DNA of 64,000 nt from NCBI GenBank assembly GCA_903813345.2, contig CAIIXF020000001.1, positions 57,150,270 to 57,214,269 on the forward strand. Direction: 5' to 3'. The position numbers were made by a program, and so were the translations under genes. The notes under the pieces are model-generated. The model was not told where the DNA came from. It saw only the letters and a list, made by a program, of their open reading frames with translations, and searched no databases. Origin of the DNA: Owenia fusiformis (Eukaryota > Annelida > Polychaeta > Sabellida > Oweniidae). Shown piece by piece: positions 25,793 to 49,200 of this stretch (position 1 is the first letter of the stretch; each line of letters opens with the position of its first letter).

Positions 25793-27277
25793 CATGCCTT
25801 ACTACGCCAATGGGTAGAGGACGGTGTACGTTGAGGTACACACCATGCCCTACTACGCCAATGGGTAGAGGATGGTGTACGTTGAGGTATACGCCATGCC
25901 TTACTACGCCAATGGGTAGAGGACGGTGTACGTTGAGGTATACGCCATGCCCTACTACGCCAATGTGTAGAGGACGGTGTACGTTGAGGTATACGCCATG
26001 CCCTACTACGCCATTGGGTAGAGGACGGTGTACGTTGAGGTATACGCCATACCTTACTACGCCAATGGGTAGAGGACGGTGTACGTTGAGGTATACGCCA
26101 TGCCTTACTACGCCAATGGGTAAAGGACGGTGTACGTTGAGGTATACGCCATGCCTTACTACACCAATGAGTAGAGGACGGTGTACGTTGAGGTACACGC
26201 CATGCCTTACTACGCCAATGAGTAGAGGACGTTGTACGTTGAGGTACACGCCATGCCTTACTACGCCAATGGTAGCTTATAGAGGACGGTGTACGTTGAG
26301 GTAAACACCATGCCTTACTACACCAATGGGTAGAGGACAGTGTACGTTGCGGTACACGCCATGCCTTACTACGCCAATGAGTAGAGGACGTTGTACGTTG
26401 AGGTACACGCCATGCCTTACTACGCCAATGAGTACAGGACGTTGTACGTTGAGGTACACGCCATGCCTTACTACGCCAATGGGTAGAGGACGTTGTACGT
26501 TGAGGTACACGCCATGCCTTACTACGCCAATTGGTAGAGGACGTTGTACGTTGAGGTACACACCATGCCTTACTACACCAATGGGTAGAGGACAGTGTAC
26601 GTTGAGGTACACGCCATGCCTTACTACGCCAATGAGTAGAGGACGTTGTACGTTGAGGTACACGCCATGCCTTACTACGCCAATGAGTAGAGGACGTTGT
26701 ACGTTGAGGTACACGCCATGCCTTACTACGCCAATGGGTAGAGGACGTTGTACGTTGAGGTACATGCCATGCCTTACTACGCCAATGAGTAGAGGACGTT
26801 GTACGTTGAGGTACACGCCATGCCTTACTACGCCAATGGGTAGAGGACGTTGTACGTTGAGGTACACGCCATGCCTTACTACGCCAATGGGTAGAGGACG
26901 TTGTACGTTGAGGTACACGCCATGCCTTACTACGCCAATGGGTAGAGGACGGTGTACGTTGAGGTGCACGCCATGCCTTACTACGCCAATGGGTAGAGGA
27001 CGTTGTACGTTGAGGTACACGCCATGCCTTACTACGCCAATGGGTAGAGGACGTTGTACGTTGAGGTACACGCCATGCCTTACTACGCCAATGGGTAGAG
27101 GACGGTGTACGTTGAGGTACACGCCATGCCGTACTACGCCAATGGGTAGAGGACGGTGTACGTTGAGGTACACGCCATGCCTTACTACGCCAATGGGTAG
27201 AGGACGTTGTACGTTGAGGTACACGCCATGCCTTACTACGCCAATGGGTAGAGGACGGTGTACGTTGAGGTACACGC
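25793..27277. repeat. 51-bp minisatellite, about 29 units
   Basis: Head-to-tail copies of a 51-bp unit (CATGCCTTACTACGCCAATG, GGTAGAGGACGGTGTACGTT, GAGGTACACGC). As 51 is divisible by 3 and the unit lacks stops in several frames, long open frames result on both strands: MGRGRCTLRYTPCLTTP on plus and GVYLNVHRPLPIGVVRH on minus, 17 residues per unit. The frames have no flanking coding exon and the same substitutions strike all codon positions, so I treat them as accidental. Left units (about 25,880-26,160) carry GGTATACGCC; right ones carry GGTACACGCC. A unit at about 26268-26285 has 6 extra bases (TAGCTTAT area). Confidence 0.95.
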
Positions 27278-40701: not shown

Positions 40702-43700
40702 TCATGTCTTTCCAGCAGTTGCAAAGAACTGAACCTGCAAAACATACATAACATTTGAACACTCGTAAAATAAAGTGACATTTGATAAACAATATATAGT
40801 AAATGTGATATTGTAATGTCAATCATTGCAAAAGAAATAAAAATACAATGGTAACATAACAGTGGAAAAAACGTAGTAATGAGTGCCTACTTCTCTTTTA
40901 CAAAAGGTTAAAGGTCAAAATGTATCTATACCCATGTTTGTCATTTCGATTCATGTTCAATTATTTTGTTGTTTGTCACTGAATAAGATGCAATGCAATA
41001 CAGACACAAGTAGAGTACATACCACACTCTCGCCAAGACTAGAGAAGCTGGCTTTACGCTGAACATTTGGGCTGATGGCATCAAGCATTCCACTACGACT
41101 CTCCTTCACCTGCTGATCCTGAACAGAAACATTTACTCAACTAGTGATCCAAATAGTAAACTGGTTATTTACAAAATAAATAATAACACAATGATACAAA
41201 GTGTAAAACATGTCCACATACTTAACACTTCCCAAAATGCACAAGAACTAATCAGTAAAACGTTAATACATGTTCCAAGAAACATCCCTAGAAATTTCAG
41301 ATCGATCTTTCAAACTGTTCAGCTGCAATCGCAGACAAGACATTTAAGACTAAATTTTCAGGATGTTTGTTGCAGTTTTGGAGGATACTGTAAGTACAGA
41401 CAGGTCTTGTTTACTTTTCTAATTTGAAGCTATGATTTTCAGGTATGATGCATCAGACATTTTCATTTAAAGTTGAAAGCTACTGAAAAGCATACAGTAA
41501 ACCTGTCTAATTCAAATGCCTCTGGGACCAGTCAATATTGTTCGGATTAGGAGGTGTTCATACAGTACATGTATCTCAAGATTTGTGCAGCATGTCGGCC
41601 AATGAGAGACAACAAGCTTGGAACTGAGAAAAAGTGCTCACATTGAGAGCTGTTTAGATAAGAGAGGTGTTTGGATATACAGATTTCACTGTAATTGGAT
41701 TCAAAGCAGCATTTCTATGAAAACAGTCAAAACCCAAACCATGAAGACATTATAAATGACATGTAACACTTGCTTGCCTGTATTGGATTACTGAAACCTA
41801 CTGGTACTATCAAGGGGCCAAGACTTGAAGTACTGGATCGTCGTCTCCTGTTCTGACTAGGAGGAGACAAAAGGCTTGGATCCTGGTGGTGCAGAAGTTG
41901 ACAAGCATCAACACTGATTTCTGGTTTGCTTCTACTTTCTAGCTTGCTCCTTGTATGTTGTTCCCTCTCCCTACCATCTCCTGCCCCTCTTCCATCAGGA
42001 ACTCCCCTTCCATCATGAGCCCCTCCTCCCCTGCTGTCACGACATTGGAAACTTTTCCTCCGACTCCTTGGTGAGATTTCTCTCAGTGATGATGTCTGGA
42101 AAAAATGAAAGAATATGAATAGTTGAAATCTTGCTTTTGTTATGAAAAGTATCACTTGAAATTAAAAAATCTTGCTTTTGCTATGAAAAGTATCACTTGA
42201 AATTAAAAAAATATTTATAGCACACGAAGGATGTGATATAAATGCACACAAGTAAATATAATGAATATGATGAAATAAATTGTTTTAAATGATTGTTATA
42301 AAGAGTGAAACCAGTCAAAAGGGAACATCCTAAAAAGGGTCTCGTGAAAATGAACATTTGTGACATAATGGCAAATCCAGATTTGAAATCTTGCTTTAGT
42401 CATGACAATTTGATGGTATCATCCCAAATTGCACACAAATAAATATGATGAATACTGAATACTAGTGAGAATGGGTAATTCCAATTTCAAATTTCAATTG
42501 TAAAAAGGAGCCAACCAGTATCTATAATAAATAAGTTATAGTTAGCTACTTGAACAAGTAGAGATTACAGTACTCACAGAATTGGAATTAGGTGAATTAG
42601 ATTTACAAGATGTAGGCTGGATACCATGAATACTGGAGTGCCTTCTTTGTGGGGTAGGGCTGTATGTAAACTGTTTCCTACTTGCTTGTACCTCTGGGGT
42701 ACCTGGTGCTAAAGAGAAACATAAACATTGATGAATATACGAGGGTATATCATAAAGTTCTCATAATATCTCTCTAATTTTTTTATTTTTCAATATATTC
42801 TGATGAATTTTTCACAGAATGTGAAGTAAAGAATGCTCTATTAATCTATCAAAAAATATTTGGTATAACAGAAATATTATTTAAGAAATGGTTGCCATAG
42901 TAACCGGAAATCAAGACACCCGGGGCAAATAAAAAATCGCACAGGAATAGCCCCAACTAACCATGTTTAAATGCATAATAAGTTATCAAATAAGCTATGA
43001 AACACATCAAATTGTTAAATACAATGTATTCTTGACTGTTTTAAACTATTATAATGGTCATGTGAATTGTGTGATCTCATAATGGATGATTGTAATGCTT
43101 CATTAGAAGTGATGTTAGACACTACAACTGTTTTGTCAAATATTCCAAGGAAAGTAGATTTTCCACTTTAGTTCATCTTAAATAAATAATAGACCACACA
43201 TAGGGTGTAATTATATTGATATCTTTGCAACATATTTGTTTTAGATCATCTTTAGTATGAACAAAGGACTTTTCAAACTAAACTTAACTTTTTATCAGCG
43301 TGAATATTATTTTTCTGATGTTCCCTGCATCTATGCATTATCTAACTCAGTCATTTCTGATCATTAAGCTTTGATTCTCAGAGTCTGGTATCACATCTAA
43401 TGAAACATGTAAACATCCCCTATGACACCACACAATCCACATGATCAATTTATTTTATAGTTAAAGCATTTAACAACATATTCAAGTTAACATTTTAATG
43501 AGTTTGGTAATTTATGAGAGTTTATTATGTATGTAAACAAGGTTAATTAAGCTCATTCTCTCAATTATTTTTATGTGCCCCGGGTGCCTTGATTTCTGGT
43601 TACTATGGCAACCATTTCTTATCTAATATTTCTGTTATACCAAATATTTTTTGATAGATTGATAAAGTATTCTATACTGCAGATTCTATGAAAATTTCAT

Positions 43701-46246: not shown

Positions 46247-49200
46247 CTGGAGATAAGAAGTAGAAATATCCAATTTAAATGTTGCACCATTACAAGTATT
46301 AAAAATTTGTGGTTGATACTGTAAATGCATGCATATCATAGTAAAAGGATTTGTGGCTATATGGAAGTTATCATGCTGATTAATTATCTTCTCAAATTTA
46401 TATAATTTACATATTAATCTATGTGGTGTGAAGAATGTTTTGACCACAAAAGAAATTGCTGAGCATGTGTTAAAAGTCACGTTTGTTAATCAGACAAGGA
46501 TAAATTCAATACTGAAAACAAACTTTTGGCTATTAAATCCACATATATTTTCAAATGTTACCTGCACGGAGTGTTATAGTTCATCCCTTCTATTTTCATT
46601 TTATTTCTCCGCTGTTTATCAATAATACTAAGCATTTCTTGAAGAAGTTCAATAAGTTGGCTGAACTGAAATTGTAAAATATATACTAGACTTTAAACAA
46701 CTGAAATTGATTAATATGGCATGGAATTAGTACAGATTCAAACTGCAAAGTTAATACTCGAAATATTTAATTATTTATTCAACAATAATTACATATATTA
46801 TTAAATGGTTTGAGGATATACATGTAAACCTGCTTGCTCCATTGAGAGGCCTTAGTGGTATATGGGGGACTTACCTGTTCCATTGTGAGGCCTTAGTGGT
46901 ATATGGGGGACTTACCTGTTCCATTGTGAGGCCTGGATGGACTGTGTATGGTATAAGTGGAGGCATTACTTTTGTAGCAATCAAATTGTGAGTCAGCCCA
47001 AATTTCTTGTCACTCAACATGTGTTTGTATATACCTGTTAAAACATTCATACATAAGCAAAGTTCATTCAGAATATAAGAAGAAACAAAATTTAGAACCA
47101 TTATGAACAAGATAGAATATAAAGGTTTTGTGTATACTATTAGCCTATGAGTAACATTACATGTATGTATAAATGAAACTAGATAATTGATGATACCGAT
47201 TACTGCCATTAGAACTTCTGTGTCCTGGTAGTTGACATCTGTAAGGAAAGGCAACACCTCATCTAAGATAATCATCTTATCAATACTGTCTAGGAGACGG
47301 TCAATACAAGCCAGGGCATTCATACGCATCTGAAAATTACCCAGATAAATAATAAATAGTAAGATAACTTGCTTTTTATTTGGATGTATTATTTCATTTT
47401 AATGGCATATGAATCCAAAACTATTTGTCTGGAAATTAACCCAGTATACCAAATAGTTCTAGATTTTCTTACAGAGAAACAAACAAGAAAATTGATTACC
47501 ATACCTTTTTATGTGTAATAAAATATAAATAAATGGACTGCTTACCTTGGGATTGGTTGCTTTTATGAAAACACTTTTAGCTTTTGGTAGGACTGTTTTC
47601 CTCATGACACTGTCATCAAGATATTCACCTATTGTGCCTATAGTGGCAATGGCAGCTTCCTAGAAGTACAGTATCTCACTTTACTAATTGTCTTGATTTT
47701 ATTCTACATATGCATTGAGACACTGGGTGCAGCATTTGATTTTTTAACACCTATTTGAAGTGTGTATGCAACCAGTTCAATGCAATCACGGTCAATAATT
47801 TGGCCCATTTTACAATTTCTTCATAAGATAAGTGTGTTACTTCATAATTATGTTTTTTGACAAGAATCAAACCATAAGCATTTATAACCACCCATAACAA
47901 TGTAAATATCTTATATATATTATATCAATACATGCTTATATATAACAAGCCTATTTTGAATAAAAATATCTTTCAATTTGAATACTAGTACATATACTAT
48001 AATGTGAATCGTGTTCATATAGTCGCAATAATATTCATATGAATCGTTACATTGAGGAATGACCTTTGATGAAGAAAAGCTGCTATCATGTATGTACCTG
48101 TCCTTGCAGGGAATTTGAGTCCAACATATTCATGATGATTGGCAAAATGTCTGTTTTTATCTCTTCTTTTGGCATTTTAGCTAGCACTATATCAAGATTA
48201 TCCAGTAATAATACTGTTGCCTGTAAAATAGAGGGCAGTTAAGTAATTCTGCATTAAGATAAAAAAATGTGTAAAAACAAGAAATGGATCATGCATTATT
48301 ATCAAAGAATATGTATTGAAAATATTAAGTGATGGTCTATGAGAAATTTCCTGCTCATCTCATTGAAACACCTTACCTGTACAGGCCTCTGCATACAACA
48401 GAGTTGTTTAAAACCTGGATAGATCTTCTCTGCAAACTCCTGGTGAGTTGCCACCTCTGTCATGGCTATAAATACTGGAATAACATTGAGAAGCAAGTCC
48501 TGATTCTTCAGCTCCTGACACAACCTTGGGAAGACATGGCGGTACAACAGTTTCTGAAAAGTTTTGACAAAGCTTTTAAGGATTGACAGACTTCAGTTTG
48601 AACATTGATAGCAACGATTACCCAAGTTTGAGAGAAACAACATCTGAACCTATTCTCCTGTATAAAGGCAAAATCTGCGAGCCCTTACTATAATCAAAAG
48701 GCCTGAAATTATGGTAACCATGACAAATATTTACCTTAGGTATTTCTGGGGTGATCATCTCTAAATCCTCTAAAAATTCTGTCTTGAACTTCTTGTCTCT
48801 GGAGTCCATCATCTCCAGTGTAAATAGGCACTGAACCACAGCATCATTGAAGTACTTTAACTGAAGTAATGAATTAGACAAATGCCATCAAGATTCAATG
48901 AGACATATCTATTTATTTCATTTATTAAAAGAGGACACACCTATTCCCAAAAATTTTCAACATCATCAACGCTCATTTATGAGAAGCTGACAAAGTTAAA
49001 TTAAAATGTATTAATTGAAAAGAAGTATTATATTAAAATGTGATGCACTAAATTAATATAATATAACCTGCATATAATGTGGATTTTTTAAAATAAAATA
49101 TTTTGCTCCAAATATGGAAATAAGAAGTGTCACAAAGATAAGAACTAAACATTGTATTGACAGTTTCTAACATCCTACATCTTCTCCAACATTCTGACAC

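Follow-up and report, generated by a model that had tools for sequence, protein, structure and literature searches.

A tandem duplication spans the end of one exon, with its 5' splice site, in a SCYL2-like gene of Owenia fusiformis, and the duplication at this exon end is genuine. Judged from sequence and reading frames, it is probably a tolerated tandem repeat, with productive splicing from the first donor and with the second, identical donor acting as a neutral or mildly costly intronic decoy. The locus lies on the minus strand of the window, which is the whole 64,000-nt stretch of DNA that was analysed, and its parts are the following (window positions).

46916..47034, minus strand: exon of the SCYL2-like gene, 119 nt; open frame, AG before it and GTAAGT after it, in-frame joins to both adjacent exons
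46910..46918, minus strand: donor 1, CAG/GTAAGT, last exon base 46916; the sole frame-keeping donor of the three into exon 46665-46562
46869..46877, minus strand: donor 2, CAG/GTAAGT, identical in sequence to donor 1, would-be last exon base 46875
46824..46832, minus strand: remnant third donor, CAG/GTTTAC by sequence, would-be last exon base 46830
46838..46934, minus strand: tandem array, 41-nt unit, 2.4 copies, 98% matches (Tandem Repeats Finder; repeat-search spacing 41, 41)
46666..46915, minus strand: intron with donor 1, 250 nt by sequence (209 nt with donor 2)
46562..46665, minus strand: next exon, 104 nt, assigned from frames; use of donor 2 would create a stop, TGA, 34 nt short of its end
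47035..47196, minus strand: upstream intron, 162 nt, bounded in the gene model by exon ends 47197 and 47034

Results

The repeat at the SCYL2-like exon end

A protein kinase domain (Pkinase, E 5.3e-14, in hand-joined window frames) lies upstream in the gene. A kinase-like part followed by repeats fits the SCYL2-like name, which was given in the first-pass annotation and beyond the kinase domain is an assumption. Exon 47034-46916 itself had no convincing match in the protein family search, and the best PDB match of the SCYL2-like fragment was to a HEAT-repeat PP2A scaffold (E 0.017).

On the minus strand the exon terminus reads GAACAG/GTAAGT. Copy 2 is an exact match of copy 1 over 19 exonic and 29 intronic nt, with 0 mismatches, which exceeds the 41-nt period and is far beyond chance for unrelated sequence. 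The first-pass annotation had described two identical CAG/GTAAGT sites 41 nt apart and donor spacings of 41 and then 45 nt, and both descriptions agree with the sequence, coordinates included. It had also described the exon end as repeated twice more, which is true of the exact copy 2 and less so of copy 3, a partial and diverged copy in which a 4-nt insertion gives the spacing of 45 nt and CAG/GTTTAC replaces the donor; the 41-nt block that ends in copy 3 (46868-46828) shows 88% matches to the block just upstream of it and 66% to the first block. A locus with three equal donors was ruled out, as GTTTAC in copy 3 leaves two strong donors. Minisatellite-type tandem growth with a 41-nt unit seems to have happened across the exon-intron junction, and it would have left the second identical 5' splice site within the intron. 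Because copy 3 is only partial, two rounds are suggested, an older one that has decayed (copy 3) and a younger one that is still exact (copy 2).

When the 161-nt stretch was searched against the 498-Mb genome, the only match reported was the stretch itself, with no second haplotype or paralogue to compare, and this single match is what could be said for an assembly artefact in which a segment of a read was duplicated. Copy 3, however, has diverged and carries an insertion of its own, and the other tandem arrays of the window, together with junction-spanning arrays in the genome, make the SCYL2-like array unremarkable, so that we consider such an artefact very improbable. Tandem Repeats Finder gave 12 rows in the window (period 15-80, at least 90% matches), the SCYL2-like array included, which make up 3.8% of its bases, or 1.4% without the array at 25793-27277. 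In the latter, a 51-nt unit occurs 29 times with 94% matches, and its G+C content looks, by eye, higher than that of the window. A young tandem duplication, also with a 41-nt unit (2.1 copies, 97%), is found at 42126-42210, on the lower-coordinate side of the SCYL2-like array. On the acceptor side of the intron, two similar stretches (46664-46682 and 46699-46717; 84%, 35 nt apart) each contain AATTTCAG on the minus strand, a likeness that chance may produce in A+T-rich sequence.

Reading frames from the three donors

Joined from donor 1, exon 47034-46916, exon 46665-46562 and the following exon form one open frame. Donor 2 adds 41 nt, shifts the frame and leads to a stop inside exon 46562-46665, as the first-pass annotation had predicted; the stop is the TGA listed above. 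From donor 3, a stop is met within the added stretch. These frames point to donor 1 as the true exon end and as the donor most likely used in productive splicing, and donor 2 would lie in the intron as a decoy whose effect is presumably close to neutral. The array is most likely tolerated because donor 1 would be the one used. Two further candidates were rejected, namely masking of a donor by RNA folding (z-score 0.72, with a fold at least equally good in 153 of 200 shuffles) and rescue through upstream acceptor-like sites with 46700 or 46742 as the first exon base, for which none of the six donor pairings, checked by hand, was in frame.

The TGA reached from donor 2 lies in the next exon, with one or more exon junctions still to follow, an arrangement that would suit a regulated switch to nonsense-mediated decay, in which donor 2 is chosen in some conditions and turns the gene down. 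A decay switch had been raised as one possibility in the first-pass annotation, but the duplication is exact and apparently recent, its third copy is degenerate and unrelated genes share the same layout. The switch is not supported, since the array is a commonplace tandem duplication, one of the 12 rows of the window, copy 3 has decayed and nothing observed shows regulation, and we give it hardly any credence.

Duplicated donors in the genome

The genome was searched for CAGGTAAGT recurring after 20-50 nt (spacing 29-59 nt), and the 205 hits were reduced by eye to 31 places; the part-searches had given 59, 39, 67 and 48 hits, or 213 with overlapping pairs included, against 205 for the undivided search. 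On C6, the places L020 and L021 (at 10396718 and 10399240) are near-identical, about 2.5 kb apart and have the same donor-like pair, which points to a larger local duplication; they were counted apart, and merging them would give 30 places. Examination covered 30 of the 31 places, C11:5921458 being left out. In 15 of these 30, the SCYL2-like locus included, an open frame runs as far as the first donor copy, and the other 15 were not counted as coding, a judgement call that excluded L041 (138 nt), L088 (120 nt) and L083 (105 nt), whose frames run mostly through repeats, though their length equals that of some counted places. Eight of the 15 are supported by their open frame alone, and the shorter of these may be due to chance; one of the eight we also take to resemble JIP3/4, with no match in a Pfam search.

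In 12 of the 15 frame-supported places, use of the next exact donor would shift the frame or introduce an in-frame stop; at L031 and L037 the donor meant is the next exact 9-letter word, variant donors in between being skipped. The exceptions are L090, L019 and L056, in which use of the next donor would add 14, 14 and 17 residues, and these three places, in frame and without a stop, count against our preferred reading of a tolerated repeat spliced from its first donor.

Several of the places have features of their own. Long arrays run from an apparent exon end at L031 (C6 near 25,952,000; 44-nt unit, 20 exact donors in the stretch examined), L056 (C9 near 14,148,800; 51-nt unit, 28 exact donors in the stretch examined) and L090 (array start C7:31,300,059; 42-nt unit), and the introns of all three hold many exact or near-exact donors. 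L002 and L035 (C1:15724956 and C8:7116370) are near-identical, with donor-like words at 17-nt spacing and no coding frame before them. L015 and L041 (on two chromosomes, C4 and C9) belong to a single repeat family (CATACAACACACTATATGAG...) that carries donor-like words, apparently not at coding exons.

In the whole genome, clusters were found at rates of 31 per 4020 for CAGGTAAGT, 19 per 4453 for the reversed word and 16 per 3910 for the shuffled word, rates that are approximate because the word counts include array copies. The odds ratio of the donor word against the pooled controls was 1.85 (Fisher p 0.017; 0.046 and 0.040 against the controls singly), with the reservations that occurrences are not independent and that the count of the first control word, which is similar to short TGAA/TGGA repeats, may be raised. 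Donor-word clusters are no rarer than control-word clusters; there is no depletion, and a slight excess is observed, for which chance, some property of the control words or a genuine bias could be responsible. Since some occurrences of CAGGTAAGT are not working donors, the figure is not a per-donor rate. That tandem growth across the donor word is not rarer fits what is expected if it does little harm.

Conserved exons with the same layout

Known families were matched by 6 of the 15 exons (CTDNEP1, PPP2R5, VPS29, kringle, kinase and PF15874). In three of them the match reaches the final complete codon ahead of the junction, with 41 residues matched for CTDNEP1 (6 exact donors), 33 for PPP2R5/B56 (5 exact donors) and 32 for VPS29 (3 exact donors in the stretch examined). 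The PF15874 match is above the family cut-off, and those of the kringle exon (E 5.7e-5) and of the protein kinase exon (E 2.2e-4) are both below it.

In CTDNEP1 donor 1 is separated from the next exon by 871 nt and in PPP2R5 by 592 nt, introns that are in both cases longer than that of the SCYL2-like locus. Compared with solved relatives, the first-donor joins were gapless across the junction, over 85 residues for CTDNEP1 (E 5.7e-42) and over 76 residues for PPP2R5 (E 2.7e-39). None of the later exact donors kept an open frame (0 of 5 in CTDNEP1 and 0 of 4 in PPP2R5), and the frames thus indicate that in both genes the known protein would be restored by the first donor only.

Discussion

Tolerance and first-donor choice, both among the outcomes named in the first-pass annotation, appear to fit the SCYL2-like locus best, because the ends of other conserved exons share its layout and the two joined genes would need their first donor. 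Survivorship counts against this reading, as harmful arrays would be gone already.

Choice between such donors has been approached in human cells. In five minigenes with a pair of identical CAG/guaagu donors and flanking introns of 365 nt, the upstream donor is reported to be used exclusively, and in the same source a survey of near-equal human donors describes a preference for the upstream donor with a long downstream intron and for the downstream donor with a short one, the line being at 250 nt (PMC9225289). According to an account of DOK7, a nearby bound SR protein also shifts donor choices of this kind (PMC5585400). The SCYL2-like exon is like the minigenes in its two CAG/guaagu donors, and unlike these designed constructs it is a natural locus with shorter introns (PMC9225289). 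Its introns, 162 nt upstream and 250 or 209 nt downstream, lie on the line of the human survey, which, as far as it is described there, therefore gives no clear prediction of donor 1.

The same border position could be taken in favor of leaky competition, in which both donors are used, the donor-2 transcripts are degraded on account of their premature stop and gene output is lowered with no regulatory role: the donors are identical, their context is near-identical and the short introns border on the class with downstream preference in the survey as described (PMC9225289). Such a leak would be compatible with the results from the rest of the genome, which nevertheless speak against it, as the same layout occurs at other conserved exons, several of them with more donors, and the clusters show no depletion against the control words. 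We regard leaky competition as unlikely, and the tolerated repeat with first-donor splicing is the reading that we retain.

The locus had been called a natural test of donor choice, which is a fair description and, given the genome-wide class, one that reaches wider than was claimed. It is possible, although we advance this tentatively and with some doubt, that junction-spanning tandem repeats with multiplied identical donors, from 2 to more than 20, form a class found throughout the genome of an animal outside the cephalochordates and that its spliceosome reliably takes the first of them whatever the copy number or intron length, even with introns of about 250 nt, where human trends are unclear. 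Choice among identical nearby donors has been studied with designed minigenes. The O. fusiformis genome offers natural replicates with varied unit length, copy number and intron length, in genes with a known correct product (VPS29, PPP2R5 and CTDNEP1 among them), and as a class they hold more interest than the SCYL2-like locus by itself.

Among the open-licence papers listed in searches for junction-spanning tandem repeats and duplicated donors, no equivalent outside cephalochordates was recognised, and the search for donor-junction minisatellites listed no paper. The G+C content of Branchiostoma, about 41%, is above the 34.5% of the window. A search for the GFP family was blank, as were its controls. 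The amphioxus repeats, termed mirages, are described as minisatellite-like tandem repeats across exon-intron boundaries, reported in the globin genes BflGb6 and BflGb9, with Adh3 as a cited case; according to this description, regular splicing is seemingly undisturbed and haplotypes differ in copy number (PMC3087553). PGBD5 and TnC are reported as additional mirage genes (PMC3902484). The SCYL2-like array resembles the mirages as described in that its units hold the exon end, the splice site and the intron start. Its tandem units cross the exon-intron boundary (19 + 29 nt repeated at 41-nt spacing) and the normal exon end is kept, the frame being maintained from donor 1 and lost from donors 2 and 3. 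The 41-nt unit also falls within the 10-72 bp given for the Adh3 mirage (PMC3087553). Unlike the amphioxus mirages, the SCYL2-like array has only two good copies.

A related event is reported for potato RdRp, in which an intron was gained through a small tandem duplication over an exon-intron boundary (PMC4974935). As in the potato case, so far as the source describes it, a small tandem duplication over the boundary has copied splice signals; unlike it, the extra copies of the SCYL2-like locus lie inside an existing intron, on its donor side, and no new intron has been formed. On the grounds of its sequence, the SCYL2-like array is a tandem duplication of the kind known from amphioxus and one of a class in the O. 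fusiformis genome.
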